Source: Leucobacter triazinivorans (GTDB taxonomy: Bacteria; Actinomycetota; Actinomycetes; Actinomycetales; Microbacteriaceae). From it: a stretch of DNA of 64,000 nt. The translations under genes were made by a program, and so were the position numbers. The DNA lies in contig NZ_CP035806.1 of assembly GCF_004208635.1 (NCBI RefSeq), positions 2,790,001 through 2,854,000 on the forward strand. The letters run 5' to 3'. The first letter of the stretch is position 1; the number at the start of each line of letters is the position of its first letter. Below the pieces are notes generated by a model, which ran no database searches, was not told the DNA's origin, and saw only the letters and a program-made list of their open reading frames with translations. Below, piece by piece: positions 13,641 through 33,918 of the stretch.

Positions 13641-13653
13641 CTACAAGTTGTAG
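13641..13653. promoter_or_regulatory. Operator dyad CTACA-N3-TGTAG, site 1
   Basis: CTACAAGTTGTAG, a perfect 6-bp-arm dyad, lies 10 bp before the GTG of the DUF5134 gene. The same 13-bp pattern occurs at 22,328, 28,368 and 33,906, and a degenerate version at 21,041-21,065. The TACA/TGTA arms resemble operators of BlaI/MecI/CopY-type repressors, one of which is encoded at 21,088. Confidence 0.7.
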
Positions 13654-13662
13654 ATTTACTCT

Positions 13663-14271
13663 GTGCTTGCTGCTCCCTGGGACTGGATCCTGACTGTCCT
13701 GTTCGCGTCGACGGGTGTCTACTGCCTCTGGCATCTTTCCGCTTCGTGGGATCGCTCTACCAGCAGGCCTGATCGTGCGGTCGATGTGTTGCATACGGTC
13801 ATGAGCGTGTCGATGATCGCAATGATCTGGTTCCCGACGGGCTCGGTCGGCACCTGGGTGCAGATTGTGGCGTTCGGGGTGGTGAGCCTCGTGATTGCAG
13901 GATACGCGAGCGCGAAGGCAGTCCCTGCAGGTGTGCGTGTTGATCTCGGCATTCATGTGCTGCTAGCGGGGGCGATGGTGTGGATGCTTGCGGCTATGCC
14001 TCTCATGATGAGTGGAATCCCGGCGCCAGGTGCTGGCGGTGGCGGACACGACGGGCACGGTGCGACGTCCGTGCCCGATGCAGCGGCCGTGAGCGCGGAA
14101 GCACCGGCATGGGTGTTGCTGGTGACCTGGGCTCTGGTCGTGCTCTGTGTCATCGCGATGGGCTGGTGGGTATACCGATTCTCCCGTGAACGGACGCACC
14201 GCTCGCATGTGATGTGTCATATCGGTATGGCCCTCGGCATGGGGGTCATGCTGGCCCTCATGATCAGCTGA
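13663..14271 (+). CDS. DUF5134-family membrane protein, copy A
   Basis: A 202-aa protein with about five to six helices. It shares the opening APWDWILTVLFASTGVYC and the AAMPLMMSG segment with the protein encoded on the minus strand at 27,743-28,351, so the two are paralogues. His/Met content is high (GGGHDGHG, SHVMCHIGMALGMGVMLALM), suggestive of copper handling, but this is inference. It starts with GTG at 13,663 immediately after operator site 1. The PepSY gene follows in the same direction. Confidence 0.75.
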   Translation: MLAAPWDWILTVLFASTGVYCLWHLSASWDRSTSRPDRAVDVLHTVMSVSMIAMIWFPTGSVGTWVQIVAFGVVSLVIAGYASAKAVPAGVRVDLGIHVLLAGAMVWMLAAMPLMMSGIPAPGAGGGGHDGHGATSVPDAAAVSAEAPAWVLLVTWALVVLCVIAMGWWVYRFSRERTHRSHVMCHIGMALGMGVMLALMIS

Positions 14272-14301
14272 TTCTGCTCTTATTTCCCCAGGAAGGTGCG
14301 C

Positions 14302-15738
14302 ATGACCACTCCGCAGACAGACCGTGCCGATGAGCGGTCGACCGACGATTCGAGACGGGCGCTCCCGCGAGCACGATGGTGGCGAGACGGCTTCCGGCCG
14401 CTGCTTGCACGTCTGCACTTCTTCATCGGCGTATTCGTGGGCCCGTTCATCTTGATTGCCGCAGTCACCGGGCTCATGTACGCCGCGACCCCCGCAATCG
14501 AGCAGATCGTGTACCGGGACACGCTCACAGTCGCACCATCCGGACCACCTCTTCCGCTTGCGCAACAGGTGAGCGCAGCCCAAGAAGCCTAAGTCGACGG
14601 CACCCTCATCGAGGTGCGCCCGGCCACCAACCCAGATGACGTCACCCGCGTCACCTTCTCGACCAAATCCGATCCCGCTGACCGAGACCTTACCGTGTTC
14701 ATCAACCCATACAGTGGTGAGGTAACGAACACGCTGCCAACCTTCGGTGAGTGGTTGCCCGTACGCTCGTGGTTCGACGACCTGCACCGGACGCTGTTCC
14801 TCGGTGATGTCGGAAGGCTCTACAGCGAGCTCGCGGCGAGCTGGCTGTGGGTACTCGCCGCGTCCGGCCTCAGCATCTGGGTGTTCCGCAGAGTCCGCAA
14901 AGGCAGGCGGCGGACTCTGGTCATCCCCACGCGCGAGGCAAAGGGGCGCGGGCGGTTGATGGGATGGCACGGTGCGCTCGGCGTGTGGCTCGCACTCGGC
15001 ATGCTCTTCCTCTCGGCCACCGGCCTGACCTGGTCTCAGTATGCCGGAACGAACGTCGGGAACCTTCGAGAAGCACTCGACTGGACCACCCCGTCCGCCG
15101 CAGCAGCGCTCCCTGAGAACACCGAGGTTCCCGAGATTGCGGAGCAGGAGCTTCCGGCGGCTCTCGAACGCGCCGCGGAGAGCGCCCGCGACGAGGGACT
15201 CGACGGGATCATCAAGATCGTGCCCGCCGAGAGCGGTGAGGCATGGACGGTGTCCCAGGCGCAACGCAGCTGGCCCGAGAAGCAGGACTCCATTTCGGTA
15301 AACCCGGCCACCGGGGAAGTGTTATCCCGAGTCGACTTCGCCGACTGGCCGCTCGCGGCGAAGCTCGCCCGCTGGGGAGTCGACGCGCACATGGGCCTGC
15401 TCTTCGGTGCTGCCAACCAGATCGTGCTGGGGGCGCTCGCAATCGGGATCATCTTCATGATCCTCTGGGGATACAGGATGTGGTGGCTGCGACGCCCAAC
15501 TACGCGTGCCGCGCGTTCGAGCTACCTGCGTCCACCCGGCGCTGGGCGGACGCCCACCCGCGTCGCGATCTTCGTGATCGCTCTCCTCGGTGTCGGAGCT
15601 GACCTATTCGCGCCCGCACTCGGTGGCTCGCTCATCCTGTTCCTCGCCGTCGATCTCGCCCTCGGTGCTTTCATAAGGCGACGAGCCTCCCGTCCGGATA
15701 GCACGGAGCGAAAGCACCGCTCCACCTCAGTACGGTGA
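14302..15738 (+). pseudogene. PepSY-associated transmembrane protein, interrupted by an in-frame TAA
   Basis: ATG 14,302 follows a GGAAGG site. The first 96 codons give a basic head and helix (LHFFIGVFVGPFILIAAVTGLMY), then TAA at 14,590-14,592. The same reading frame continues without shift to 15,738 with the rest of a PepSY_TM protein: periplasmic PepSY-like domains (VTRVTFSTKS, GEAWTVSQAQ, VNPATGEVLS), the HGALGVWLALGMLFLSATGLTWS helix pair, and a last helix bundle. The intact length would be about 478 aa. Either the gene is inactivated, the stop is read through, or it is a sequencing error. An internal ATG at 14,614 could start a 374-aa fragment lacking the first helix. Confidence 0.8.
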
Positions 15739-15801
15739 CTGCTCAACGCTGCGATGGTTGACACCACCCCTAAGCAGCAGATCGAGCCGTGTGACGTTGA
15801 T

Positions 15802-16158
15802 TCACCCCCAGATGACCAACATGCGGTAGAGCATGACGGCGATCGCGAAGTTGACGACCACCAGCACGAGGTTCGCCGAGCGGCGACGATCTACAAGAGC
15901 CCAGAACGCGGCACCGAACGGGATGAGAGTCGCGACGATGAGGTACATCCAGAACTCGAGCGGATCGCCCTCGGCAGGATTGCCCGCGCATGGCTGCACG
16001 ATGCCGATGACCACCTGCGCGATGAGCAGGATCCCGACGAGCAGGGTCGCGCCGAGCGTGTAGTCGTTGGGCCCGCGCTTCCGGGCGTACTCGACGATAC
16101 AGACGACCATCGCGAGGAGGGCGACGACGACCTGGACGATGCCGAACCAGACGATCAT
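15802..16158 (-). CDS. Four-helix membrane protein of unknown function
   Basis: The 118-aa product has four hydrophobic segments and a loop containing a cysteine (IVQPCAGNPAEGDPLEFW). It resembles small integral membrane proteins widespread in Actinobacteria, where the loop GNPAEGDP-EFW type motif is recurrent. Start ATG at 16,158 lies 23 bp downstream of the stop of the gene encoded at 16,181-17,338, so the two are probably co-transcribed on the minus strand. The gene converges with the PepSY pseudogene. Confidence 0.7.
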   Translation of the reverse strand: MIVWFGIVQVVVALLAMVVCIVEYARKRGPNDYTLGATLLVGILLIAQVVIGIVQPCAGNPAEGDPLEFWMYLIVATLIPFGAAFWALVDRRRSANLVLVVVNFAIAVMLYRMLVIWG

Positions 16159-16180
16159 GAGGCGATGGCGGAGTCGGCGG

Positions 16181-17338: not shown

Positions 17339-17366
17339 GCTCCGCCGTTGATCCCGCGCCGTCTGC

Positions 17367-18308: not shown

Positions 18309-18356
18309 TCGGGGCCTCCGTTCTCGTTCGACACCAATCAATACACTTCATTATAT

Positions 18357-18386
18357 AGATAACATCGCCATATGGCGATGTTATCT
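18357..18386. promoter_or_regulatory. Perfect 30-bp palindrome, likely ArsR-family operator 1
   Basis: A perfect inverted repeat with 15-bp arms centred at 18,371/18,372. Its core CATCGCCA-TA-TGGCGATG (18,363-18,380) has the size and symmetry of ArsR/SmtB operators. It lies in the divergent promoter between the CDF exporter and the ArsR-type gene, inside a short AT-rich stretch. Confidence 0.8.
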
Positions 18387-18442
18387 TGCGTGGGCGTACT
18401 GCGGGTTCGCCCGACCTGGAATGGTTGCCGAATCGGAGATAT

Positions 18443-18460
18443 CATCGTCACATGACGATG
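18443..18460. promoter_or_regulatory. Second ArsR-type operator overlapping the repressor start codon
   Basis: CATCGTCA-CA-TGACGATG has 8-bp perfect arms and matches the core of the palindrome at 18,363-18,380 in 16 of 18 positions. It overlaps the ATG at 18,452, so binding should block the repressor's own expression. Confidence 0.7.
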
Positions 18461-18823: not shown

Positions 18824-18832
18824 GCGACGTCC

Positions 18833-20140: not shown

Positions 20141-20169
20141 GCCGAAATCATATGTTCGGAGGGCCTAAG

Positions 20170-21040: not shown

Positions 21041-21065
21041 TTAACTCGACGAGATGTAGAGTTAA
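21041..21065. promoter_or_regulatory. Degenerate CTACA-N3-TGTAG dyad in an extended inverted repeat (site 5)
   Basis: TTAACTC at 21,041-21,047 and GAGTTAA at 21,059-21,065 form an inverted repeat around CGACGAGATGTAG, which differs from CTACA-N3-TGTAG at two arm positions. It lies 22 bp before the BlaI-type gene, as expected for autoregulation. Confidence 0.6.
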
Positions 21066-21087: not shown

Positions 21088-21465
21088 ATGGCAGGGGTGC
21101 GTAAACGCGAATGGGGCGGGCTCGAAGACGAAGTCATGCAACGACTCCACGAGCAAGAACATGCCGTGAGCGCACGCGAACTGCAGGCCATGTTCAGCGA
21201 ACCCGTGCCGGCCTACACAACGCTCATGACAACGCTCACCCGCTTGGAAGGGAAAGGCCGCGTCGAACGGATCGGCGATTCGCCCCGCAAGATCAGCTTC
21301 CGCCCACTGCGCTCAAGCGAGGAAGAGGCGAGTGAGACGATGACCTCCGCCCTCGAGCAGGCCACCGACCGCCGAGCCGCCCTGCTCGCCTTCGCCGGCA
21401 ACCTCGCAGATGACGACGTCGCGGCGCTCATGGACGCCTTCGGCGAGGCGACCGCGCACGAGTAA
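21088..21465 (+). CDS. BlaI/MecI/CopY-family repressor
   Basis: A 125-aa winged-helix protein: GGLEDEVMQRLHEQEHAVSARELQ, then PVPAYTTLMTTLTRLEGKGRVERIG, typical of the penicillinase-repressor family, with a C-terminal dimerisation helix region. GAGGAGG precedes ATG 21,088. The next gene encodes an M56 protease, the usual partner that cleaves this class of repressor. Its likely targets are the TACA/TGTA dyads in this window, making it the candidate master regulator of the copper island. Confidence 0.9.
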   Translation: MAGVRKREWGGLEDEVMQRLHEQEHAVSARELQAMFSEPVPAYTTLMTTLTRLEGKGRVERIGDSPRKISFRPLRSSEEEASETMTSALEQATDRRAALLAFAGNLADDDVAALMDAFGEATAHE

Positions 21466-21472
21466 TCCGATC

Positions 21473-22288
21473 GTGTTACTCCTTGCATTCGCCCTCCTCG
21501 GCACAGCCATCACCCTGGCCGTGCTCTGCCCGCGGCTCTTCGCCGCCGGGCGCTGGCATCTCTTCCACCCTCGAGCCGCGCTCACCGTCTGGTTCGGGAC
21601 ATTCGGCGTCGGCGTCGTCACCGCATTCTCCGGCATCGCGCTCGGCATTGTCTCCGTCGAATCACTGCGCCACGCGATCCCGCACACGCCCGGCGTGACG
21701 GTCTCCGCAGCAGTCTGGGTGGCCGCCGGGATCGCCGGCCTCGCACTGGCCTTCCTCTTCACCTACTCCGGGTCGCTCCAATCGCTCCGCCCCGCCTCCC
21801 ACTCCCACGCCGTCGCCTACGCGCGAGAAGAGCACGTCGGTTTCACGCTCGTCCGATTCCACTCGGAGACCCCCGAAGCCTATGCTGTTCCCGGCCGACG
21901 ACCGGAAATCTTCGTCTCCTCGTCAATGGAACAGCTCCTCACCGCGCCACAGCTGCAGGCCGTGCTCGCACATGAGTTCGCGCATCTACGGCATCAGCAC
22001 GGGCTGGCAATGCGCATCGCACAGATCAACGCGCTGTTCCTCCCGGGCATCCGAGCCAGCCGTGCATTCGAGCGCGCCACCCGTCTGCAGATCGAGCTCG
22101 CCGCGGACGATGCCGCCGCCCGGCAGGTCGGTGCTGCGCATCTCGCGAACGCGCTCCTCGTGCTCGCGGCCGCAACGCAGGACGTCGCCATGACCCTCCG
22201 GGCGGAGCGGCTGAGCCGGAAACGGTGGCCCGCCCCGGGACGTCGACGGGTCCCGCAGGGACTGCAGGCCGCCTCCCAGCTGCGCTGA
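21473..22288 (+). CDS. M56-family (BlaR1-like) membrane metalloprotease, short form
   Basis: A 271-aa protein starting at GTG 21,473, 8 bp after the repressor stop. It has four N-terminal helices region, then the zinc motif HEFAH in VLAHEFAHLRHQHG, and a downstream Glu/Asp in QIELAADDAAARQVG. It lacks the extracytoplasmic penicillin-sensor domain of BlaR1. Pairing with BlaI points to signal-dependent repressor proteolysis; the signal could be copper or oxidase status, which is inference. Confidence 0.88.
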   Translation: MLLLAFALLGTAITLAVLCPRLFAAGRWHLFHPRAALTVWFGTFGVGVVTAFSGIALGIVSVESLRHAIPHTPGVTVSAAVWVAAGIAGLALAFLFTYSGSLQSLRPASHSHAVAYAREEHVGFTLVRFHSETPEAYAVPGRRPEIFVSSSMEQLLTAPQLQAVLAHEFAHLRHQHGLAMRIAQINALFLPGIRASRAFERATRLQIELAADDAAARQVGAAHLANALLVLAAATQDVAMTLRAERLSRKRWPAPGRRRVPQGLQAASQLR

Positions 22289-22327: not shown

Positions 22328-22340
22328 CTACATCTTGTAG
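22328..22340. promoter_or_regulatory. Operator dyad CTACA-N3-TGTAG, site 2
   Basis: CTACATCTTGTAG lies 36 bp before the ATG of the copper chaperone gene, which heads the chaperone, CopD-CtaG and CopA operon. It matches sites 1, 3 and 4 in both arms. Confidence 0.75.
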
Positions 22341-22376: not shown

Positions 22377-22610
22377 ATGGACGCGACCAGCAAGCAGGAG
22401 CTAACCGTCAACGGTATGACCTGCGGCCACTGCGCACAGACACTGACGGCAGAGCTCGGCACGCTCAGCGGAGTGACCTCCGTCGACGTCGACGCGGCCG
22501 CCGGCCGAGCCGTGGTCCATGCCGCGCACCCCCTCAGCACCGAGGTCCTCGCGGGGGCTGTCGGCGAGGCCGGCTTCGAACTCCTGGCAGTGCACGAGCG
22601 CACCCAATGA
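22377..22610 (+). CDS. CopZ-like copper chaperone (HMA domain)
   Basis: A 77-aa heavy-metal-associated domain with GMTCGHCAQTL at residues 14-24 (MxCxxC) and the usual beta-alpha-beta pattern (GVTSVDVDAAAGRAVV, then the C-terminal strand FELLAV). It binds Cu(I) and hands it to CopA. GAGGGG lies before ATG 22,377. It overlaps the next gene by ATGA. Confidence 0.92.
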   Translation: MDATSKQELTVNGMTCGHCAQTLTAELGTLSGVTSVDVDAAAGRAVVHAAHPLSTEVLAGAVGEAGFELLAVHERTQ

Positions 22611-24667
22611 GCGGCAGCGCCGCTTCGCCCGTCCCGGCCGAGGCACACGGGGAGCGCTCACCGAGGCGCACGGCGACAACTCTCGCGATTGTGGCGATCG
22701 CCCTCGCCGCGGCGACCGTGCCCCCGATCGTCGCCACCCTCGACATCGGCCCATTCGCCTACGAGCAGCTTTACCTCACCTTCCCCGGCTTCGACGTCGC
22801 CGTAATGACCGCGCTTGGCCAGGGCCTCGGCGACCTGGCCGCGACGCTCACCTTCGGCGCCCTGCTCTATCTCTTGTTCTTCCGCGACGCTCGCGGCAAA
22901 CGGGCCAGACGGATCGAGCCGTGCCTCGAGCTCACCGTGCTGCGCTCCGCCTCCGTCGCCTGGGCGATGGTGTCAGCGGGCATGGTGGTCTTCGAATCGC
23001 TCGACGCGAGCGGCATGCCCTTCGCCCGACTCGCGGAACCCGGCGCATTCGCCTTCCTCTACGAGGCGAGCGCCTTTCCCCCCGCGTGGACGGTATCCCT
23101 GATCGCGGCAACGATCGTCTCCATCAGTTGCCAGTTCGTCACCCGGTGGACCGGGCTCCTCATTCCGCTCTGGGCCACCTGTTTCGGCATCCTCGCCCCA
23201 GTGGTCGTCGGGCAGATCCTCGTCGGTCCGAACCACGACCTCGGCAGCGACGCCGGCACCTATCAGGCGCTCGTCACCGGAGCCGTCTTCGGAGTCCTCG
23301 TCATCGCCGCCCTGCGCGCGATGACCGGTCGCACCCTCGACCCGGTCATCGCCACCCGCCTCACGAGGCTCGTGCTCGTTGGCATCCCCGTCATCGGCGC
23401 CACCGACCTGCTCCTGGCATGGTTCAAACTCGCCGGATCGAGCCTCCTCGACTCCGCGACAGGCTGGCAGATCCTCGCACGCTGGGCCTGCCTGGGACTC
23501 CTCATCGTCGCCCTCCTGAGCTGGCGAGCTGCGCAGCGGACCGACCCGTCCCGTCCGGCCGTCTGGCCGCCAGCCATCGCGACCGTGGCCATCGCCGGAT
23601 GGCTCGGCATCACCGCGGCGATGACGCGCGTCCCGCCGCCGCACTACTTCCAGCCCACGAGCATCTCCCAGGTATTCCTCGGATTCGACGTCGAAGCCCC
23701 GCCATCGCTGCTCGTCTGGTTCACGCACTGGCGGCCCAACCTCCTCTTCATCGTGCTCGCAATCATCGCGATCGCCGTCTACCTCTGGGCGGTGCGCGTG
23801 CTGCGCAACCGCGGAGACAAGTGGCCCGTCGGACGCACCATCTCGTGGATCGGCGGCTGGTGCGTCATCGTCTTCATCACGAGTTCCGGCTTCGGGAAGT
23901 ACTCGGCCCCAGACTTCGGTACGCACATGATCGTGCACATGAGCCTGAACATGCTCGCACCGATCCTCCTGGTGATGGGCGGCATCATCACCCTGTTGCT
24001 GCGCGCGACCCGAGCCGACCCGGCGCGACCGGCGGGCCTGCACCACTGGATCACCTGGGTGCTGCACTGGAAGGTACTCCGCTTCGTCTTCAACCCCCTG
24101 TTCGTGTTCGTGCTGTTCGTGGGCTCCTACTACGGGCTCTATTTCAGCGGCATCTTCGAAGAGGCGATGCGGTTCCACTGGGCGCACCAGCTCATGAACG
24201 TCCACTTCATCATCGCCGGGTACCTCTTCTACGGGCTCGTGATCGGCGTCGACCGACCCCCGCGCCCACTGCCGCACATCGGCAAGCTCGGCTTCGTGCT
24301 CGCCGCGATGCCGTTCCACGCCTTCTTCGGCGTGATCCTGATGATGGCCGACGGCGAGTGGATCGCGCAGAACTTCTACCTCTACTTCGGGCTGCCCTGG
24401 ACCGACCTCCAAGCCTCCCAGTACCTCGGCGGCGGCGTCGCCTGGGCCGGCGGCGAAATGCCGCTGCTGCTCGTCATCATCGTGCTCGGCATCCAATGGT
24501 CGCGGCAGGATGCGAAAGAGGCCCGCCGCAAGGATCGGCACATGGACTCCGGCCGCGACGAGGAGTTCGACGACTACAACAAGATGCTCGAAACCCTCGC
24601 CAAGCGGCGACAGGCCACAGGCCCCGGGCGTCCCGCACCCCGGAGCGACGAGGAGACCCAGCAGTGA
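22607..24667 (+). CDS. Fused CopD-CtaG copper import / oxidase assembly membrane protein
   Basis: A 686-aa protein with about 14-16 helices. The N-terminal half (residues about 25-340) is CopD-like, a family linked to copper uptake. The C-terminal half is a caa3_CtaG domain with HWRPNLLFIVLAIIAIAVYLW, FGTHMIVHMSLNMLAPILL, WAHQLMNVHFIIAGYLFYG and the tail DEEFDDYNKML. The fusion is a known actinobacterial arrangement. It starts in the chaperone's ATGA overlap and ends in a GTGA overlap with CopA. Confidence 0.92.
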   Translation: MSGSAASPVPAEAHGERSPRRTATTLAIVAIALAAATVPPIVATLDIGPFAYEQLYLTFPGFDVAVMTALGQGLGDLAATLTFGALLYLLFFRDARGKRARRIEPCLELTVLRSASVAWAMVSAGMVVFESLDASGMPFARLAEPGAFAFLYEASAFPPAWTVSLIAATIVSISCQFVTRWTGLLIPLWATCFGILAPVVVGQILVGPNHDLGSDAGTYQALVTGAVFGVLVIAALRAMTGRTLDPVIATRLTRLVLVGIPVIGATDLLLAWFKLAGSSLLDSATGWQILARWACLGLLIVALLSWRAAQRTDPSRPAVWPPAIATVAIAGWLGITAAMTRVPPPHYFQPTSISQVFLGFDVEAPPSLLVWFTHWRPNLLFIVLAIIAIAVYLWAVRVLRNRGDKWPVGRTISWIGGWCVIVFITSSGFGKYSAPDFGTHMIVHMSLNMLAPILLVMGGIITLLLRATRADPARPAGLHHWITWVLHWKVLRFVFNPLFVFVLFVGSYYGLYFSGIFEEAMRFHWAHQLMNVHFIIAGYLFYGLVIGVDRPPRPLPHIGKLGFVLAAMPFHAFFGVILMMADGEWIAQNFYLYFGLPWTDLQASQYLGGGVAWAGGEMPLLLVIIVLGIQWSRQDAKEARRKDRHMDSGRDEEFDDYNKMLETLAKRRQATGPGRPAPRSDEETQQ

Positions 24668-26904
24668 GTCTCACCACGGACGTCGTCGAGCCGCTGCAGC
24701 TCGACGTCTCAGGGATGACCTGCGCCGCCTGTGCGGGCCGTGTCGAGCGCGCCCTGAACAAGATCGAGGGCGTCACCGCGAGCGTGAACTACGCGACCGA
24801 GCGCGCCATCGTCTCCGGTCTCGGTACCGCCCGCGCGGGCGAGGCCCTCGAGCGCGTCGAGAAAGCCGGCTACGGCGCCCGCATCCACGACGAAGCGGAC
24901 GACGCCTGGTCCAAGCGCGCCACCGAGGTGCGCATCACCTCGCTGCGGCGACGGCTGATCCTCGCCGCCGTGCTCACGGTACCGCTCATGGATCTCACGA
25001 TCGTGCTCGCCCTTGTCCCCGAGTGGCGTTTCCCCGGCTGGGAGTGGCTTTGCGTCGCCCTCGCCGTGCCGATCGTCACCTGGGCGGCCTGGCCGTTCCA
25101 CAAGGCGACCCTCAGAAACCTCCGCCACGGCGACGTCAGCATGGACACCCTCGTCTCCCTCGGCATCACTGCCTCCTTCGGCTGGTCGGTAGTGACGCTG
25201 CTGTTCGGCATCGAGGGGGGCGGGACTAGGTACTGGCTCGGTATCGGCGCCACCCCCGAGGGGGCGAACGCCATCTACCTCGACGTCGCCGCCGGTATGA
25301 CCACCTTCCAGCTGGCGGGCCGTTACTTCGAGACCCGCTCCCGCCGCAAGGCCGGCGACGTGCTCGGCGCGCTCAGCGAGCTCGCCGCCACGCACGTCCG
25401 CATCCAGCGCGACGGCGCCGAAGAGATCGTGCCCGCCTCCGCGCTCCGCGTCGACGACGTGTTCGTCGTGCTGCCGGGCGAAACCCTCCCTGCCGACGGT
25501 ACCGTGGTCGCCGGCAGCGCCGACATCGACGCCAGCATGCTCACCGGCGAACCGCTCCCCGTTGCCGCCGGACGCGGTGACACCGTGATCGGGGGCACGA
25601 TCAGCACCAACGGCCGCCTCGAGGTGTGCACGAGCTCCGTGGGTGCGCACACTCAGCTCGCGCAGATGGCCGCCCTCGCCGAGCAGGCCCAGGCCCGCAA
25701 AGCTCGCGTGCAGACTCTCGTCGACCGCGTCACCCGCTACTTCGTGCCCGGCGTGATCGTCCTAGCTATCTTCGTCACCGCCGGGTGGATGCTCGCCGGC
25801 CGCTCATTCGAGGAAGCCTTCGGGATTGGCATCTCCACCCTCATCATCGCCTGCCCCTGCGCCTTGGGGCTCGCCACCCCGACCGCGCTCATGGTCGGCA
25901 TCGGCCGGGGCGCCAGCCTCGGGATCCTCGTCAAGGGGCAGGACGCGCTCGAGGCGAGCGGCACGATCACCACGGTGGTGCTCGACAAGACCGGCACCCT
26001 GACCACCGGCGAGATGAGCGTGCGCAGCATCGCCGCTGTCCCCGGCGTTGGCGAACACGAGCTGCTGCGCATCGCCGCCTCAGTCGAGCAGGGGTCTGAG
26101 CACCTCATCGCCCGCGCCATCGTCGCGGCCGCGAAGCAGCAGATCACCGACCTCGACCATGTCAGAGACTTCATCGCCGTACCGGGCCGGGGCGCCTCCG
26201 GCACCGTCGCCGGCGACACCGTTCTGATCGGCAGCCTTGCCTACATGGACGAGCAGGGCGTCTCCACCGGAGCCGCCCGCGTCTACCTCACCGAAGCCGA
26301 CCCCACTGAGTCGCCCGTGTTCGTTGCCCAGGCGGGACGCCTCATCGGTCGCTTCGGCCTCGCTGACACCATCAAGCCGAACGCCCGGGCCGCGATCCAG
26401 GCGCTCCGGCAGCAGGGCCTCACCACGGTGCTGCTGACCGGCGACTCCCGCGCCGTCGCCGAGGAGATCGCCGGCACCCTCGGCATTGACCGCGTCTGTG
26501 CCGAAGTGCTGCCCGCCGAGAAGGCCGATGCGATCCGCGAGCTGCAGGCTGCGGGGGAGCGGGTCGCTATGGTCGGGGACGGCATCAACGACGCCGTCGC
26601 CCTCGCCGCCGCCGATCTCGGCCTTGCCGTCGTCTCCGGCACCGACATCGCCCTCAAGTCGGCCGACATCATCCTCGTGCGGGAGGACCTCGCCGTGATC
26701 CCCGAGGCGATCGAGCTGTCGCGGCGCACCCTGCGCACCATCCGCGTGAACCTGGGCTGGGCGTTCGGCTACAACCTTGCCGCGATCCCGATCGCCGCCG
26801 CCGGATTCCTGAACCCCCTCATTGCCGCCGGTGCGATGGCGCTCTCCTCGGTGCTCGTCGTGTTCAACAGCCTCCGGCTGCAGAACTTCCGCCGCAGGGT
26901 CTAG
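24664..26904 (+). CDS. copA: Cu(I)-exporting P1B-type ATPase
   Basis: A 746-aa ATPase with one N-terminal HMA domain (GMTCAACAGRVE), the transmembrane metal site CPC (IIACPCALGLATPTA), TGEP actuator loop, phosphorylation motif DKTGTLTTGE, and the MVGDGINDAVAL hinge. The ATP-binding HP motif reads SEHLIARAI instead of the usual SEHP. GTG 24,664 overlaps the upstream stop; the frame stays open far upstream but only as a shadow of the CopD-CtaG gene. It exports copper from the cytoplasm. Confidence 0.93.
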   Translation: MSLTTDVVEPLQLDVSGMTCAACAGRVERALNKIEGVTASVNYATERAIVSGLGTARAGEALERVEKAGYGARIHDEADDAWSKRATEVRITSLRRRLILAAVLTVPLMDLTIVLALVPEWRFPGWEWLCVALAVPIVTWAAWPFHKATLRNLRHGDVSMDTLVSLGITASFGWSVVTLLFGIEGGGTRYWLGIGATPEGANAIYLDVAAGMTTFQLAGRYFETRSRRKAGDVLGALSELAATHVRIQRDGAEEIVPASALRVDDVFVVLPGETLPADGTVVAGSADIDASMLTGEPLPVAAGRGDTVIGGTISTNGRLEVCTSSVGAHTQLAQMAALAEQAQARKARVQTLVDRVTRYFVPGVIVLAIFVTAGWMLAGRSFEEAFGIGISTLIIACPCALGLATPTALMVGIGRGASLGILVKGQDALEASGTITTVVLDKTGTLTTGEMSVRSIAAVPGVGEHELLRIAASVEQGSEHLIARAIVAAAKQQITDLDHVRDFIAVPGRGASGTVAGDTVLIGSLAYMDEQGVSTGAARVYLTEADPTESPVFVAQAGRLIGRFGLADTIKPNARAAIQALRQQGLTTVLLTGDSRAVAEEIAGTLGIDRVCAEVLPAEKADAIRELQAAGERVAMVGDGINDAVALAAADLGLAVVSGTDIALKSADIILVREDLAVIPEAIELSRRTLRTIRVNLGWAFGYNLAAIPIAAAGFLNPLIAAGAMALSSVLVVFNSLRLQNFRRRV

Positions 26905-26909: not shown

Positions 26910-27734
26910 GTGCCCCAGATGCGACCGCCCCAGTATGCGCGCTTCGATGTCGTCCCGATCTCGAAGCGCCGACTGCGCTGGGAGCTCGCGATTGTGCTCG
27001 CCCTGTCCTTCGGTTACGCGGGGGTGCAGTCGATCATCACGATCCTGCGCCGCCTCAGCCAGGAGACCGCGCTCGCCTCCCAGACCGCCACGATCAACCG
27101 GCCGCTCGCCGAGCAGCCCCTCTTCGACCTCGCCTATCAACTGCTCGGCTTCTTCGGGGAACTCGCGCCCGTGGCGCTCGTGGCGTACCTGCTCTGGCGC
27201 AGTGCCGCACCGCACCTCGGGAATCTCGGGCTCGGCCGTCTCCCCGGCAGGGACGGCCGTTGGTGGCTGGCCGACACCGGCTGGGGCGTCTTGCTCGCGG
27301 CCGCGATCGGGATCCCGGGGCTCGCGTTCTACCTCTTCTCGCGCATCATCGGCATCAATGCGAACGTCGTGCCGACCGCTCTCGACGCCTACTGGTGGAC
27401 AGTGCCCGTGCTGATCCTCTCCGCTCTGCGCGCAGCTCTCGGCGAGGAGCTCATCGTCGTCGCCTACTTCTTCGACCGCATGCGGCGCCTCGGGGTCGGC
27501 CCGCTCGCCACCATCGTCTCGAGCGCACTGCTGCGCGGCAGTTACCACCTCTACCAGGGCATCGGCGCGTTCATCGGCAACGTCGTGATGGGGCTCCTCT
27601 TCGGCTGGGTGTACCACCGCTGGGGGCGGTCACTGCCGCTCATCATCGCGCACTGGCTGCTCAACATCGTCAGCTTCGTCGGCTACCCGCTCGCGCTGCT
27701 GCTCTGGCCCGCCCTCTTCGAAGTCGCGCCCTAA
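26910..27734 (+). CDS. CPBP-family intramembrane metalloprotease, copy A
   Basis: A 274-aa protein with six to seven helices and the CPBP (Abi/Rce1-like) motifs: ALGEELIVVAYFFDRM, then LLRGSYHLYQG, and IIAHWLLNIVSF. These supply the glutamates and histidines of an intramembrane protease. GTG 26,910 is taken as start; ATG 26,919 is an alternative. It lies 5 bp after copA. A second CPBP gene is at 28,913, but the two are not close copies. Confidence 0.85.
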   Translation: MPQMRPPQYARFDVVPISKRRLRWELAIVLALSFGYAGVQSIITILRRLSQETALASQTATINRPLAEQPLFDLAYQLLGFFGELAPVALVAYLLWRSAAPHLGNLGLGRLPGRDGRWWLADTGWGVLLAAAIGIPGLAFYLFSRIIGINANVVPTALDAYWWTVPVLILSALRAALGEELIVVAYFFDRMRRLGVGPLATIVSSALLRGSYHLYQGIGAFIGNVVMGLLFGWVYHRWGRSLPLIIAHWLLNIVSFVGYPLALLLWPALFEVAP

Positions 27735-27742
27735 CTTGGCCG

Positions 27743-28351
27743 TTACCCGTTCATGAGCAAGAGCATCGCCGCCATACCTGCCGCCATCAGACAGTGGCAG
27801 AGCGCGTGCAGCCGCTCCCCGCGGATCGCCGCCGAACGGTACGCCCACCACATCGCGATCGCCGCGCTCCCGACGACAAAGACCCCGTTCACGATATCTA
27901 CCCAGAGCGGTGTCGTCATCATCATCTCCATGGCTTCACCACTGCCTGCACCATGGCCGGACGAGGCCTCGTCCCCGCCCATTCCAGCCATGAGCAGCGG
28001 CATTGCCGCGATCATCCACACCATCGCCGCGGCGAGCCAGATATGCCCGGCGAGATCCACGCGACGACTGAGCAGCGGCGCCTTCCAGAGCCCCGGCATC
28101 AGTGCGAGCGCGAGCACGGTGAAGACCACGATCTGCGCCCAGTTCAGCGCTGCCGGGATCATCATGAACCAGCACATCGCGATCATTCCGGCGCTCATCA
28201 CCAGGTGCATGAGGTGGATCGCTGTCGACTCGAGCACCGGGCCACGCGGGGCACCGGGCGGCGGCCAGTGCGCGATGAGGCGCACGAGGCAGTACACCCC
28301 GGTGAATGCGAAGACGACGGTGAGAATGAGATTCCACGGGGCAGACAGCAT
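27743..28351 (-). CDS. DUF5134-family membrane protein, copy B
   Basis: The 202-aa product shares with copy A (13,663-14,271) the N-terminal helix (APWNLILTVVFAFTGVYC) and the AAMPLLMAG segment, a Gly/His/Met-rich loop (SSGHGAGSGEAMEMMM), and a final Cys/His/Met helix (HALCHCLMAAGMAAMLLLM). It converges with CPBP copy A with an 8-bp gap. Operator site 3 lies 17 bp upstream of its start, as site 1 does for copy A. Confidence 0.8.
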   Translation of the reverse strand: MLSAPWNLILTVVFAFTGVYCLVRLIAHWPPPGAPRGPVLESTAIHLMHLVMSAGMIAMCWFMMIPAALNWAQIVVFTVLALALMPGLWKAPLLSRRVDLAGHIWLAAAMVWMIAAMPLLMAGMGGDEASSGHGAGSGEAMEMMMTTPLWVDIVNGVFVVGSAAIAMWWAYRSAAIRGERLHALCHCLMAAGMAAMLLLMNG

Positions 28352-28367
28352 ACAGCCGAGCTTACAT

Positions 28368-28380
28368 CTACATCATGTAG
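28368..28380. promoter_or_regulatory. Operator dyad CTACA-N3-TGTAG, site 3 (divergent)
   Basis: CTACATCATGTAG lies between the minus-strand DUF5134 gene (start 28,351) and the plus-strand DUF4418-like gene (start 28,499), so it could govern both directions. Confidence 0.75.
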
Positions 28381-28498
28381 AGTACGGGGCGAGGCCCGCA
28401 CCCCTCACAGTTCCCCGAACCTGGGGCAGGGGAGGAGAGATCCCGGGCGCCCGGCGCGGCCCAGACCCCCTGCGGCGTCCGCGAAAGGAATACCGACC

Positions 28499-28891
28499 AT
28501 GACCGTACTCGCCTTCGCCGTCGGCGGCATCCTCACCGCCACCGGCGTGATCGCCTACTTCGCCTCCGACGCGAGCAGCATGACCGCCCTCATCCCCGCA
28601 GCGCTCGGTGTGCTCATCCTCATCGCCGCCTTTGTCGCACGCGCGCCGAAGGCCCGCCGACACGCGCTCCACGCCGCCCTCGCGATCGCTCTCCTCGGCA
28701 TCGCCGGTACCGCCATGAACGTGATGAAGCTCGGCGAGCTCTTCGCCGGCACCGCCGAACGCCCGAACGCGGTGATCGCGAGCACCGTCACCTTCGTCGT
28801 GCTCCTCGTGTTCCTCGCCGCCGGCATCGCCTCCTTCGTGCGCGCCCGCCGCTACCGCGCCGCCCAGACGCCGACGAACGCCCCCGCCTGA
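28499..28891 (+). CDS. DUF4418-like four-helix membrane protein
   Basis: A 130-aa protein with four helices, no signal peptide, and a basic C-terminus. AAAGGAA lies upstream of ATG 28,499. The first gene after operator site 3 on this strand, it leads a run through CPBP protease, multicopper oxidase, a small membrane protein and cupredoxin. No metal motif is obvious. The family name is from overall resemblance. Confidence 0.6.
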   Translation: MTVLAFAVGGILTATGVIAYFASDASSMTALIPAALGVLILIAAFVARAPKARRHALHAALAIALLGIAGTAMNVMKLGELFAGTAERPNAVIASTVTFVVLLVFLAAGIASFVRARRYRAAQTPTNAPA

Positions 28892-28912
28892 CCCGCAGCT
28901 GCAGACCCCAGC

Positions 28913-29968
28913 ATGTCCAGCCCCGAACCCGAGCCGCGCAAGCCATCTGCGGTGCCGCCATCCTGGGGCTGGGCACGGGGTTCGCAGCAGCTGCGCACCG
29001 TGGAGACCGAACCGCTCGACTACCACCGCCTACTGCGCGGCACCCCCGCCTACCGGTGGTGGAAGCCGCTCGCCCTGCTCCTGCTCTCGGGAGTCTTCTT
29101 CGGCATCCTCACCGTGCTGGTTACCGTGGCGGTTATCCCGGTGCTGACGCTCACAGACCCCGACTACCCCATGCAGGTCGCCGCGGGCACCGCAGAGGTG
29201 CTCGATACGCAGCGGCCCATCTCGGTGCTCGTGAGCATGGTCTCGATCATCATCATGCTCCCGGCGGTGCTGCTCGCAATGCTCGTGATGGGCATGCGGC
29301 CCATCGGCCGGATCTGGTCGGTCGCCGCCCGCATGCGCTGGGGACTCCTCGGCAGGCTGCTCGGCGTCTCCGTGCTCGCCATCGTCGTCATGAACCTTGT
29401 CGGCATCGGCGTCGGCCTGCTCTTCGAGCCCGCCACCGATGCCGCAGCTGCTACTAGCGACACCGGCTTCGACGCGCGCGCCGCGCTGCTATCGATGCTG
29501 CTCGTGCTGTTCCTGGTGCCGCTGCAATCTACCGCCGAAGAGGTCGTCTTCCGCGGGCTCTTCATGCAAGTGCTCGGGGCCTGGATCAGAAGCCCCTGGT
29601 TCGCGATCCTCATCCCCTCGATCGGCTTCGCGTCTCTCCACATCTACGACATCTGGGGGCTCCTCGCCGTCGGGCTGCTCGGCGCCGTCTCCGCCTGGCT
29701 CACCTGGCGTACCGGGGGCCTCGAGGCTGCGATCGCGATCCACATCGTCAACAACTACGTCGCCTTCGGCATCATGGCCTCGGGCCTCACCGGGGAAACC
29801 GCGCAGACCGCAGGCGACGGCAACCCCGCCGGGCTGATCGGCCAGATCGCCGGCCTCGCCCTCTTCGTGTGGCTCACGCTGCGGGTCTTCACCCGAGGCG
29901 GGCACGGCAGGCAGCGCATCGACCTTATCCAGATCCCCGTCGCCCCGCGGGAATGGGGCACCCGGTGA
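28913..29968 (+). CDS. CPBP-family intramembrane metalloprotease, copy B
   Basis: A 351-aa protein with eight or so helices. CPBP motifs are STAEEVVFRGLFMQVLG (EExxxR), PSIGFASLHIYDIWGL (histidine) and IAIHIVNNYVAFG. It ends in a GTGA overlap with the multicopper oxidase gene, so it belongs to the same operon. Whether it processes a substrate encoded nearby is unknown. Confidence 0.88.
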   Translation: MSSPEPEPRKPSAVPPSWGWARGSQQLRTVETEPLDYHRLLRGTPAYRWWKPLALLLLSGVFFGILTVLVTVAVIPVLTLTDPDYPMQVAAGTAEVLDTQRPISVLVSMVSIIIMLPAVLLAMLVMGMRPIGRIWSVAARMRWGLLGRLLGVSVLAIVVMNLVGIGVGLLFEPATDAAAATSDTGFDARAALLSMLLVLFLVPLQSTAEEVVFRGLFMQVLGAWIRSPWFAILIPSIGFASLHIYDIWGLLAVGLLGAVSAWLTWRTGGLEAAIAIHIVNNYVAFGIMASGLTGETAQTAGDGNPAGLIGQIAGLALFVWLTLRVFTRGGHGRQRIDLIQIPVAPREWGTR

Positions 29969-31557
29969 ACGCAGACGAGCCGACCTCCGAGGAGTCGCAC
30001 GGAGCCGCACGCCCGGGCATCACCCGTCGGGGAGTACTCGCGGTCGCCGCCGGCGGCCTGGTCGCCGGCACCGTGATCACGCTGAGCGGCTGGACGCCGC
30101 AGCCCAAACCCATCCTCGCGCCCAGCGGTGGTGTGCGGCGCACACCGCTGCCGATCCCGCCGCTCGCCGAACCCGAGATCGCCCACGACGGCACCCGCAT
30201 CTTCTCCCTCACCGCGCAAACCGGGCAGAGCCGCATCCACCCAGCTGGACCGACCCCGAGCTGGGGCTACAACGGCGCCTTCGCAGGGCCCTCCCTGCGC
30301 GCTGCCGAGGGCGATCGGGTACGGATCGTCGTGCGCAACGAGCTCCCCGAGACGACGACCGTGCACTGGCACGGCTTGAAACTCCCCGCGCAATACGATG
30401 GCGGCCCGCACCAGCCCATCGCCCCCGGCGAGGAATGGATCGCCGAATGGGAGATCGAGCAACCAGCCGCGACCTGCTGGTACCACCCGCACACCCACGG
30501 CACTACCGAAGCACAGGTCACCCGCGGCCTGATGGGTCTATTCATCCTCCAAGACGAGCTCAGCGAGTGGAGCGGCCTGCCGATCGACTACGGTGTCGAC
30601 GACGTGCCCGTCCTCGTCACCGATCGCAGCTTCAACGCCGACGGTACCTTCGCCGCACGCGAACGCACCGCCTTTGGGCTGCTCGGGGACACGGTCATCG
30701 TGAACGGCGCGCTCTCCCCGACGTTCGAGGTCACCCGCGCGCTCACCCGGCTGCGCCTGCTGAACGGTTCCTCGGCGCGCACCTACCACTTCGTGGTTCA
30801 GGGCGCGCCGATGACGCTCGTCGGTACCGAGGCGGGACTGCTGCCCGACCCCACCCCGATCAACAGCGTCACCCTCACCCCAGGGGAGCGGGCCGAGGTC
30901 CTCGTCGAGCTCGAGCCCGGGCAGACCGCCATGCTGCAATCGGTGCCGCATTCGCTGGGTCTCCTGCAGAGTACTTCCCGCGCGGCCGGCGCCGAAGACC
31001 GCTTCGACGTGCTCGAGCTGCGCGCCGCCTCAAGCTTCGCCGGGCCCGACTTGACCATCGCCGGACTCGGCATGATCGCGCAGGTTCTCCCGCCTCCGCT
31101 TGAGGCGCCAGATGTCACCCGGTCGATGGTGCTCACGAACAACCAGATCAACGGCGCCACCATGGAGATGAGCCGCGTCGACCAGGTCGTCACCGTCGGC
31201 GCCCGCGAGCGGTGGGTGATCGATAATCAGCACCACCTGCCCCACAACCTCCACATCCACAACGCGCGCTTCTTGGTCGTCAGCGTCGACGGCGAACCCC
31301 CGCGCGACTACGAGCGCGGCTGGAAAGACACCGTCTATGCGCCGCCCGGTCGTCCCGTGATCATCGACGTCGAGTTCGGTCGCAGCGCCGACCCCGAATG
31401 GCCCTATATGTTCCACTGCCACTGGCTCATGCACCACGACATGGGCATGATGGGGCAGTTCGTCGTGATCGACGACACCCAGGAACCGCCCACCGCGATC
31501 AGCACTCCCGCAGTGCACGCGGGCAACCCCGGAGGAGGCATGAATGGCAGCCACTGA
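29965..31557 (+). CDS. Tat-exported multicopper oxidase (CueO-like)
   Basis: A 530-aa oxidase. The N-terminus has a twin-arginine signal (TRRGVLAVAAGGLVAG). All copper ligands are visible: HWHGL and HPHTHG in domain 1, then HNLHIHNARF and HCHWLMHHDMGMM in domain 3. Such enzymes oxidise Cu(I) to the less toxic Cu(II) outside the membrane. The start is GTG 29,965 in the stop overlap of the CPBP gene. The last 14 bp overlap the next gene. Confidence 0.93.
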   Translation: MNADEPTSEESHGAARPGITRRGVLAVAAGGLVAGTVITLSGWTPQPKPILAPSGGVRRTPLPIPPLAEPEIAHDGTRIFSLTAQTGQSRIHPAGPTPSWGYNGAFAGPSLRAAEGDRVRIVVRNELPETTTVHWHGLKLPAQYDGGPHQPIAPGEEWIAEWEIEQPAATCWYHPHTHGTTEAQVTRGLMGLFILQDELSEWSGLPIDYGVDDVPVLVTDRSFNADGTFAARERTAFGLLGDTVIVNGALSPTFEVTRALTRLRLLNGSSARTYHFVVQGAPMTLVGTEAGLLPDPTPINSVTLTPGERAEVLVELEPGQTAMLQSVPHSLGLLQSTSRAAGAEDRFDVLELRAASSFAGPDLTIAGLGMIAQVLPPPLEAPDVTRSMVLTNNQINGATMEMSRVDQVVTVGARERWVIDNQHHLPHNLHIHNARFLVVSVDGEPPRDYERGWKDTVYAPPGRPVIIDVEFGRSADPEWPYMFHCHWLMHHDMGMMGQFVVIDDTQEPPTAISTPAVHAGNPGGGMNGSH

Positions 31558-32011
31558 CGACACCGCCGCCCGCCCGAGCAGAGCTCGCCGGTTGCTCGGG
31601 GCGCTCGCGCGCTGGGTGCTCATCGTTCACGCCGCACTGCTGGTCGCGCAGCCGTTCATCGCCGGGACGATGCTCGACGGCCGCAGCGCCGACGCCCAAG
31701 CCTGGCACCTGAACATCGGCATGGCCCTGCCCGCCATCGGATTCGTGCAGATCATCGTCACACTCCTCGCCTGGCGACTCGCCCGCTGGCCCCAGGGCGC
31801 TTTCACCGGCTCGATCGCCGTCTGGGTGCTCGAACTTGCCCAGTTCTTCATCGGCTATCTGGGCATGCCGCTCGCGATGCACATCCCGCTCGGCCTGCTC
31901 CTCGTCGTTGCCGGGGTCGGCATGGCCTACTGCTACGGCTACCGAGCTGCTCCCGCACAGCCAGGTGGCTCCGCGCAGCCTGCGCGAAGCGCGGACGAAC
32001 TGACCCCTTGA
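31544..32011 (+). CDS. Four-helix membrane protein next to the multicopper oxidase
   Basis: The 155-aa protein has four helices (for example WVLIVHAALLVAQPFIAGTML and LAMHIPLGLLLVVAGVGMAYCYG) with histidines near membrane faces. That pattern resembles small cytochrome-b-like or DUF6220-type proteins, but no firm assignment is possible. It starts inside the oxidase gene, 14 bp before its end, and is followed 20 bp later by a cupredoxin. Confidence 0.6.
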   Translation: MAATDDTAARPSRARRLLGALARWVLIVHAALLVAQPFIAGTMLDGRSADAQAWHLNIGMALPAIGFVQIIVTLLAWRLARWPQGAFTGSIAVWVLELAQFFIGYLGMPLAMHIPLGLLLVVAGVGMAYCYGYRAAPAQPGGSAQPARSADELTP

Positions 32012-32031
32012 GATTGAGAGGAAGACACACG

Positions 32032-32412
32032 ATGGACACCGATACCCGCCGTATTCTCATGCACGCCCTCGGAGCCGTACTGGCGGTCGGGCTGCTCGGT
32101 GGCCTCGCCGCCTGCGCCGCGGCGAAGCCCGAGGTCACCCCCTCTGCTGATGACGCGGACCCCGCCGTCACCGTGCGCGCCTACGACAACGCCTACGACA
32201 TGGCCGAGGTCGACGTCACCGAGGGCGAAGCGGTGCGCTGGGTGTTCGAGGGGCAATCCAAGCACGACGTCGTCGCCGGGGACGCGAGCTTCGTGAGCGA
32301 ACTCATGCGGCAGGGGAGCTTCACCCACGTCTTCGATGAGGCCGGCAGCTACGAGTACGACTGCTCGATCCACGCCGAAATGAAAGGCGTCGTCAACGTG
32401 ACGGCCGACTGA
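32032..32412 (+). CDS. Cupredoxin lipoprotein (plastocyanin/amicyanin-like)
   Basis: The 126-aa protein has a lipoprotein signal (LLGGLAAC lipobox) and a cupredoxin domain. Blue-copper ligands are apparent as the His in SKHDVV and the cluster YDCSIHAEMKG (C-x2-H-x2-M). GAGAGGAAG precedes ATG 32,032. It may take electrons from, or hand copper to, the multicopper oxidase. Maturation would need LspA and Lnt, both encoded in this island. Confidence 0.9.
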   Translation: MDTDTRRILMHALGAVLAVGLLGGLAACAAAKPEVTPSADDADPAVTVRAYDNAYDMAEVDVTEGEAVRWVFEGQSKHDVVAGDASFVSELMRQGSFTHVFDEAGSYEYDCSIHAEMKGVVNVTAD

Positions 32413-32509
32413 CCCATGCCCAGGATCCCGCACGCGCAGCGCGCACCCGATCGCCACCGCTCCTCGAGCAGCCGTCAGGCATTCGGCCTCGCCTGTGTAG
32501 ATTCGAACC

Positions 32510-33124
32510 ATGACCACGAGCGCTGAGACACCGCTACGCCGACGACGCATCGGCTTCGCCTGGTTCTCGATCTTCGCCGGTATCGTTGGCTGGTTCGCCT
32601 CCTTCGAGCTGCTCACCGAGTACATCAAGACGCTGCAGGAACCCACCCACTTACCGAACTGCAACATCTCGAAGCTCGTCACCTGCGGGCCGAACATGGA
32701 CTCCTGGCAGGGTTCGCTCTTCGGATTCTCCAACACCATCATCGGCGTCACCGCCTTCACTGCCCCGATCCTCGTCGGCGCCGCGATCCTCGCCGGAGCT
32801 CACTTCGCCCGGTGGTTCTGGCGGCTCTACTGCCTCGGCCTCCTCGGAGGCATCGTCTTCATCACCTGGCTGCAGTACCAGAGCTTCTACTCCCTCGCGA
32901 CGCTCTGCCCCTGGTGCATGGTGGTCTGGACGGCAATGATCCCGCTCTGGTGGATCACCCTCGCGAAGGCGGGCGCCGACGGGAACCTCCTTGCAGGGGA
33001 TACGAGTGTGCGCGCGTTCAAAGGGTTCGCCTCCTGGGCGTGGGTCGCGATCCTCCTCCACTTTGTCATCGTTGCTGTCGTCGCACAGCTCGCGGTCGAC
33101 TGGCTCTTGGAGTTCCGGCTCTGA
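32510..33124 (+). CDS. VKOR-family quinone-dependent disulfide oxidase
   Basis: A 204-aa protein with four to five helices. The VKOR loop cysteines are in CNISKLVTCG and the active CxxC in ATLCPWCMVVW. A conserved Ser/Asn region (FGFSNTIIG) is also present. It reoxidises DsbA-like proteins, passing electrons to quinone. This complements the DsbA-like protein at 6,182. Confidence 0.92.
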   Translation: MTTSAETPLRRRRIGFAWFSIFAGIVGWFASFELLTEYIKTLQEPTHLPNCNISKLVTCGPNMDSWQGSLFGFSNTIIGVTAFTAPILVGAAILAGAHFARWFWRLYCLGLLGGIVFITWLQYQSFYSLATLCPWCMVVWTAMIPLWWITLAKAGADGNLLAGDTSVRAFKGFASWAWVAILLHFVIVAVVAQLAVDWLLEFRL

Positions 33125-33208
33125 TCCCTGATGGTCGCGGGCGGAACTCCCAGCCGGCCGTCCTCTTCTTCACAGCCAGGGGTGCTCGCTCTGTCATACG
33201 CTGGCATC

Positions 33209-33517
33209 ATGAACTGCCCGAGTGACGGAACCACCCTGCTGATGAGCGAACGACAGGGGGTCGAGGTCGACTACTGTCCGCAGTGCCGTGGTATCTGGCT
33301 CGACCGGGGCGAGCTCGACAAGATCCTCGAGCGCATGCAGGCCGACACCGCCGAAAAACCGGCCCAGCAGTACTCCGAGCCCCGCTACGACAACCGCGAC
33401 GAACGGCGCTACGACAACCGAGGGCGGGACGGCCACTACGACGACCGCCGGCGCGACCCCCGCTACCGCAAGAAGAAGAGCCCGTTCGAGTTCCTCGGCG
33501 ACATCTTCGAGGGCTAA
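33209..33517 (+). CDS. TFIIB-type zinc-ribbon protein
   Basis: A 102-aa protein with one zinc ribbon: MNCPSDGTTLL and VDYCPQCRGIWLDRGELDKIL, the standard zf-TFIIB pattern (CP-x-D...CP-x-C-x-G-x-W-L-D). The rest is a disordered Arg/Asp/Tyr-rich repeat (RYDNRDERRYDNRGRDGHYDDRR, broken here as two similar units) and a short C-terminal motif (SPFEFLGDIFEG). Function is unknown. It is the last gene of the copper island. Confidence 0.85.
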   Translation: MNCPSDGTTLLMSERQGVEVDYCPQCRGIWLDRGELDKILERMQADTAEKPAQQYSEPRYDNRDERRYDNRGRDGHYDDRRRDPRYRKKKSPFEFLGDIFEG

Positions 33518-33905
33518 GACGCCTGCACGCATTTGAGTGGGCGATACGCTCGTGAACTCACCCCGAGGGGATTCATTCAGGCCAGCTGGACATCAGGCGT
33601 CTCCTTGCTCTTGGCCCGAGCAGGCGCCATGCTCACGACAGTGTGCCTTGGGCCCCATGGAGGAATAGTCCTTGCGGGTATTTTTCTAGATCGTCCGAAC
33701 GGGCCGCGTCTGTGCTGACCCTCCCAGATCTGCGGGCACGTAGACGAAGCGAGGCAACGTAGTGAGACTTCAAACACCAAATGTGCAGGCTTCGACATGA
33801 GGACGCCGACCGCTCTTTTGGCCCACGGCCAGTTCCACCCCATATGAGCACGAACGATTTCGTGAGAACTTCTCTTTCGAAGATGAGCATGTGAATGAAC
33901 GTATG
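33518..33905. other. Junction stretch without a supported gene
   Basis: About 390 bp between the zinc-ribbon gene and operator site 4. Composition drops in GC relative to the left side, and I find no frame with a believable start and product. It separates the metal island from the mobilisation genes and may be an old recombination boundary. Confidence 0.45.
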
Positions 33906-33918
33906 CTACATTATGTAG
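33906..33918. promoter_or_regulatory. Operator dyad CTACA-N3-TGTAG, site 4
   Basis: CTACATTATGTAG is a perfect match to the shared dyad and lies 25 bp before the relaxase ATG at 33,943. A relaxase is not an obvious member of a copper regulon. Confidence 0.65.

Follow-up and report, generated by a model that had tools for sequence, protein, structure and literature searches.

Does a short palindrome that recurs in one region of the Leucobacter triazinivorans genome mark a single copper and redox regulon, and if so, which protein would bind it and which state of the cell would relieve repression? We addressed this for a stretch of 64,000 nucleotides (contig NZ_CP035806.1, positions 2,790,001 to 2,854,000 of the forward strand; hereafter the window, with positions counted from its first letter), in which the dyad CTACA-N3-TGTAG occurs around a gene for a BlaI-type repressor and an adjoining gene for a membrane zinc metalloprotease. 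We consider it likely that these parts belong to a horizontally spread BlaI-protease regulon in which copper handling is linked to respiration, with shared operators, a protease switch, and one further dyad that probably only resembles an operator.

Four exact 13-bp copies of the dyad were found in the window, at 13641..13653 (CTACAAGTTGTAG), 22328..22340 (CTACATCTTGTAG), 28368..28380 (CTACATCATGTAG) and 33906..33918 (CTACATTATGTAG). An inverted repeat before blaI (21041..21065) contains a half-degenerate copy with two mismatches, CGACGAGATGTAG (21047-21059). These are the sites that a sequence-only reading of the same DNA had listed. Dinucleotide shuffling of the window (100 shuffles) gave a mean of 0.00 exact dyads compared with the four observed, and with up to two mismatches allowed there were 23 matches in the window compared with 7.05 expected. 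The sequence-only reading had proposed a motif scan of the whole genome and regarded many random dyads elsewhere as an outcome that would speak against a regulon. Our genome-wide scan covered exact copies, mismatched sites being scanned within the window, and in 3,478,815 bp it returned only the same four sites, spread over 20.3 kb, and zero copies elsewhere. The reversed control pattern occurred eight times in the genome, so that the number of dyads is ordinary and their clustering is what is striking; by our own arithmetic the chance of four random sites clustering in this way is about 8e-7.

Operator 1 precedes copy A of a DUF5134 gene (13663..14271, plus strand; PF17197, 78 bits). Operator 2 precedes genes for a CopZ-like HMA chaperone (22377..22610, plus strand; NF047957, 51.6 bits, below the cut-off of 85), a CopD-CtaG membrane protein resembling CtiP of Corynebacterium glutamicum (22607..24667, plus strand; PF09678 Caa3_CtaG, 243.8 bits, the CopD half being assigned by resemblance without a Pfam match) and a CopA-like Cu(I) P-type ATPase (24664..26904, plus strand; TIGR01525 and TIGR01511 above cut-off). 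Operator 3 lies between DUF5134 copy B (27743..28351, minus strand; PF17197, 70.7 bits) and a divergent operon (28499..33517, plus strand) that encodes, by Pfam matches and open reading frames (ORFs), a small membrane protein, a second CAAX protease, a multicopper oxidase, another small membrane protein, a cupredoxin, a VKOR protein and a Zn-ribbon protein. The sequence-only reading had assigned its four dyads to these three targets; the dyads at 13641, 22328 and 28368 do precede them, the last serving the divergent pair, whereas the one at 33906 precedes a MobF relaxase gene. Further candidate dyads were rejected as operators, one with a single mismatch at 4920 inside the ResB gene and three with two mismatches at 42479, 44042 and 52810 inside ORFs.

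The evidence for a shared operator is comparative. A scan of named genomes provided 58 loci with BlaI relatives (1,055,185 bases in total), in which the dyad had 49 exact copies compared with 16 when the 29 other arms of equal composition are pooled. The spacer was specific as well, since spacers of 0 to 11 bases other than 3 gave 0 to 2 copies each, with none for a spacer of 2 and 49 for a spacer of 3. Exact dyads were present in 28 of the 58 loci, and dyads with at most one mismatch in 41. By tblastn, 16 of the 49 exact copies preceded DUF5134 genes (one of them shared with CopD-CtaG), 15 CopZ/CopD-CtaG alone, four CopC, one CopCD and one BlaI; among the other 12, four stood before DUF5134 genes recognized by hidden Markov model (L160, L161, L162 and L168) and one before a BlaI-like ORF (L201). 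Viewed from the genes, 26 of 40 DUF5134 starts had an exact dyad and 35 of 40 one with at most one mismatch, the figures for all ORFs of the same loci, DUF5134 genes included, being 39 and 61 of 732. No clear general overlap with a -10 hexamer emerged from both orientations of the 49 dyads (T at the sixth position in 34/98). In a sample of 199 genomes of the family, 68 had an exact dyad and 112 a BlaI match, and among the 75 dyads listed (50 genomes) the distance to a BlaI match was at most 1 kb for 19 and at most 15 kb for 34, compared with roughly 0.05 and 0.7 expected.

The individual sites are conserved as well. Operator 1 is kept in Leucobacter soli and Gulosibacter, and across five loci each none of the 13 positions varies in operator 2 and one of the 13 does in operator 3. 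In loci L146, L147 and L148, DUF5134-A and its dyad are absent and sites 2 and 3 are kept. A site similar to the one before blaI occurs in many, not all, relatives, often with TGTAG kept and the left half degenerate. On this comparison, sites 1 to 3 and the half-degenerate blaI site appear as conserved operators of a mobile BlaI-protease locus, and CTACA-N3-TGTAG very probably serves the local BlaI as its operator and marks a copper/redox regulon. The sequence-only reading had proposed as much, but for the fourth dyad too. The comparison establishes where the sites lie, how well they are conserved and that they are associated with BlaI loci; from this we infer that BlaI dimers would bind at three promoters, those of DUF5134-A, CopZ/CopD-CtaG/CopA and the divergent pair of DUF5134-B and the multicopper oxidase operon, and also to the weaker copy at blaI itself.

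The distribution of the locus points to mobility. The closest BlaI loci are those of L. soli (98%), L. chromiisoli, L. chironomi and Tessaracoccus caeni (95% each) and Gulosibacter chungangensis (84%), followed by others in Leucobacter, Arthrobacter, Microbacterium, Frigoribacterium, Agrococcus casei, Mycetocola reblochoni, Brachybacterium and further taxa. T. caeni belongs to the Propionibacteriaceae while Leucobacter belongs to the Microbacteriaceae, and a 95% BlaI locus in another family therefore makes horizontal transfer likely. None of the three same-genus genomes sampled had a BlaI match. A conjugative Arthrobacter plasmid encodes the gene set with two exact dyads between BlaI and PepSY and a one-mismatch dyad before CopD-CtaG, and a Leifsonia plasmid encodes it with an exact dyad before DUF5134 and a one-mismatch dyad before the HMA gene. 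On a Rhodococcus fascians plasmid BlaI, M56, ctaD, CopC and CtaG genes were present and the dyad was absent; BlaI relatives in the plasmid collection (E 1e-5) were 19 Rhodococcus records with up to 40% identity. In Agrococcus casei, Microbacterium gubbeenense and Frigoribacterium sp. JB110 (L160-L162), YcnI and CopCD were 99-100% identical to one query, which marks the copper locus of these three, judged by its identity, as a recent transfer. The three presumably share cheese as a habitat, and the transfer perhaps took place among cheese bacteria. In the available part of a paper on gene transfer in cheese, neither copper nor BlaI is mentioned (PMC5526665).

The repressor (21088..21465, plus strand; 125 amino acids) exceeds its family cut-off clearly (PF03965, 56.6 bits compared with 22.6). 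It is followed by the protease gene (21473..22288, plus strand), encoding 271 amino acids with about three hydrophobic segments and the HExxH motif HEFAH at residue 167. The sequence-only reading had called this partner an M56 protease; its Pfam match in the window is to M48 (PF01435, 37.5 bits), although relatives are annotated as M56. No family match for a beta-lactam or separate sensor domain was found on this protein in the Pfam and NCBIfam profiles. Ten aligned BlaI sequences (the window repressor and its nine closest relatives) contain no cysteine in any case, and all ten keep the motif L-X-F-A/T-G. Staphylococcus aureus BlaI is cleaved by BlaR1 between Asn101 and Phe102 (PMC9834060), and by analogy the conserved L-X-F is a candidate cleavage site. 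Because BlaI adjoins a HEFAH membrane metalloprotease, proteolytic induction, as the sequence-only reading had suggested, is plausible. We infer that the protease would cleave BlaI near L-X-F and that induction would set in once the heme-copper oxidase receives too little copper; candidates for the protease signal are membrane copper or an oxidase intermediate.

The direction of the response was judged from the targets. In relatives, dyads precede DUF5134-YcnI-CopCD genes, CopC-PCuAC genes with a DyP-like protein, and ATP-binding cassette (ABC) transporters of the iron/siderophore kind, the names YcnI, DyP and ABC being assigned from the sequences by eye. CopC and PCuAC stand behind dyads in relatives such as L151, L152 and L157 and CopD-CtaG does so in the window, so that window and relatives together hold the CopD-CtaG, CopC and PCuAC genes of a copper-deprivation regulon of the C. 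glutamicum type. CtiP (a CopD-CtaG fusion), CopC and PCuAC are linked to oxidase assembly in C. glutamicum (PMC9145763), YcnJ, which contains CopC and CopD domains, sustains respiration when Bacillus subtilis is starved of copper (PMC13344008), and cydA is induced by copper deprivation in Mycobacterium tuberculosis (PMC12140626). Distant BlaI proteins share a dyad with a divergent cydA. A dyad was found before cydA in L038, L055, L059, L064 and L203, lying between the distant blaI and cydA in the last three, which suggests BlaI control of the copper-free bd oxidase in those actinobacteria. In genome G056, BlaI-type dyads precede genes for FecCD-like ABC transporters and lipoproteins (L067 14787-18821; L068 6402-9282), which could represent metallophore uptake under copper control. 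Since copper supply to respiratory oxidases accounts for these targets better than detoxification does, we lean, if only slightly, towards induction by copper limitation rather than excess.

DUF5134 is among the chief targets, and both copies in this genome belong to the regulon. No paper naming DUF5134 was found in the open-licence PubMed Central (PMC) literature searched. In 31 aligned sequences the invariant residues are M47, M51, M54 and M105. Thirteen columns are nearly invariant, seven of them Met/His (H44, H98, M108, M112, M189, M193 and M200) and six other residues (F14, W56, Q67, F71, A104 and W107). The structural model of copy A has six helices (pLDDT 85.7, pTM 0.80), and the Met/His residues of helices 2, 4 and 6 occupy a single face in each helix (random p 0.020, 0.009 and 0.002, for positions picked after viewing the alignment and with M196, 87%, added). 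We predict from this Met/His pattern that DUF5134 is a Cu(I)-holding membrane protein. Fold searches returned no convincing relative among the structures listed. Matches to the domain came from 119 of 394 genomes sampled within the class (109 above cut-off) and from 0 of 14 control genomes, and 30 members from two other families keep many of the Met/His columns.

Several observations weigh against a single BlaI regulon that answers to copper shortage. At up to one mismatch 17 of the 58 BlaI loci have no dyad, including L166, L171, L177, L178, L183 and six Clavibacter loci (L186-L191), and many of the 58 are near copies of each other (e.g. L146-L148; L160-L162), so that the counts are not independent. 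The 30 DUF5134 loci from other families have no dyad except for a one-mismatch copy in two, and a BlaI match occurs in one (these loci are short); the role of DUF5134 is therefore not dependent on the BlaI regulon. Genes for CopZ, CopA and a multicopper oxidase, which the operon also contains, are likewise found in detoxification loci. Together with the cupredoxin, these genes would fit a copper-resistance island under the same BlaI, induced through the protease by copper excess, and the close relatives include L. chromiisoli, whose name implies a metal-polluted source. We regard this as possible but rather doubtful. The conserved targets (YcnI, CopC/CopD, PCuAC, CopD-CtaG and cydA) are known for copper supply or shortage and are of the copper-import and oxidase-assembly kind, BlaI has no cysteine, and the genome has five CsoR-family matches, which could handle metal excess. 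For these reasons copper excess as the inducer, which the sequence-only reading had put forward as a possibility, appears doubtful.

Dyad 4 requires a separate explanation. The ATG (33943) of a MobF/TrwC relaxase gene (33943..37413, plus strand; PF08751, 140.4 bits; NF041492, 125.3 bits with a cut-off of 100) lies 24 bp beyond its end. BlaI could have captured this promoter, in which case the relaxase palindrome would have become a perfect, working operator in this strain and transfer of the element could follow copper status. A perfect operator so close to the start codon, beside the BlaI island in both the window and L. soli, agrees with such a capture, as does the lack of a dyad at the four other matching relaxase genes of the genome. 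We nevertheless consider it unlikely, because the same form occurs in G020, a genome without a BlaI match, and because dyad 4 occupies the place of a palindrome of the relaxase family itself. Of 41 relaxase loci, part of a longer list of matches, 38 have an upstream ACGnA[T/A] box, and in most of them a palindrome comes after it. The form is CTACC/GGTAG in 15 loci and CCACC/GGTGG in 10, a further 13 are of other or imperfect form, and three have CTACA/TGTAG, these being the window, L. soli and G020. In the relaxase tree the three form one clade of four with G056 (support 98/95). G056, which has a sister relaxase and, on another contig, a BlaI copper locus, shows CTACC/GGTAG, and both arms would therefore have changed together in an older palindrome. 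Relaxase relatives with 60% identity on two plasmids had no dyad. Dyad 4 is thus probably a variant form of the family's own palindrome and a look-alike of the operator, with coincidence as the simpler reading; BlaI may still bind it, but as the ordinary regulon member that the sequence-only reading had seen in it, it was rejected. This case warns that a motif in a promoter beside the regulator can match perfectly without being the same operator. In all, the genome encodes five relaxases of this type (the others at 1901795, 3374783, 3343000 and 327941), and two of the others are identical in their N-terminal regions.

It is very improbable that some other factor binds the dyads, such as the genome's second BlaI (2390289). 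This protein matches the local BlaI at 35%, and distant BlaI proteins of the family stand beside the same dyad type, so that recognition may overlap; yet the dyads accompany the local type of BlaI, even in Tessaracoccus, and near the second BlaI only two-mismatch dyads were found.

If the BlaI-protease regulon is read as above, BlaI and a sensorless membrane protease might constitute an actinobacterial proteolytic switch for copper limitation (or failed oxidase assembly), with DUF5134 as its core output and as a new class of Met/His membrane copper carrier; we propose this tentatively, giving it somewhat less than an even chance. In our judgement, the copper switches we can name mostly sense excess, and the sensing of copper lack is less known. 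The locus offers a defined operator, repressor, protease and short list of conserved targets, so that copper-lack sensing becomes directly testable, and the regulon provides a functional lead for DUF5134.

Among the remaining genes of the window, a first CAAX protease (26910..27734, plus strand; PF02517) lies between CopA and DUF5134-B. A PepSY_TM gene behind DUF5134-A (14296..15738, plus strand; PF03929) has an in-frame stop at codon 99; the stop is at codon 345 in L. soli (L145), and Gulosibacter (L150) has none before codon 480. Further upstream are genes for a second CtaG and for TlpA-like, DsbD-like, ResB, DsbA-like, CcsA-like, Lnt and SURF1 proteins, a gene set for cytochrome maturation. 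At 43956-54289 there are two truncated dihydrolipoamide-dehydrogenase-like copies, and Y2/IS91-type transposase sequence follows or is fused to each of them, which suggests a duplicated mobile unit beside conjugation genes.

Among the papers listed by searches of the open-licence PMC literature, none connected a pair of BlaI and protease with such copper genes of actinobacteria in its title or abstract, and the available text of a Haloferax paper naming BlaI and copper describes no such regulon (PMC9240420). The nearest known systems share parts of the arrangement. Like BlaI-BlaR1 and MecI-MecR1 of staphylococci, the local system pairs a Penicillinase-repressor-family protein with an adjoining membrane zinc metalloprotease, with palindromic TACA/TGTA operators (PMC7253601) and a conserved Phe near the position of the Asn101-Phe102 cut (PMC9834060). 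It differs by having no beta-lactam sensor domain, a 3-base spacer and targets in copper handling and respiration. CopY/CopR of Firmicutes belong to the same superfamily and control copper genes through TACA/TGTA half sites, but CopY has Cys-X-Cys metal motifs and a 2-base spacer, RNYKACANNYGTMRNY (PMC7253601). The local repressor has no cysteine and a 3-base spacer; direct copper sensing of the CopY type is therefore unlikely, and membership in CopY was rejected.

The BlaI of M. tuberculosis is likewise actinobacterial: the only PDB sequence match to the local BlaI was 2g9w, which we take to be M. tuberculosis BlaI Rv1846c. Targets reported for M. tuberculosis BlaI are ATP synthase and cell-division genes (PMC12565901, PMC7924339); the letters of its operator were sought in the open-licence PMC literature and not found. 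C. glutamicum shares the CopD-CtaG fusion (CtiP), CopC and PCuAC for oxidase assembly (PMC9145763), but DUF5134 is absent there, as seen among the 14 control genomes. In B. subtilis, YcnK is the regulator of YcnJ and YcnI, whereas the local regulator is a BlaI with a protease. The likeness to the YcnK-YcnJ-YcnI system lies in the YcnI and CopC/CopD proteins, which back respiration under copper starvation (PMC13344008).

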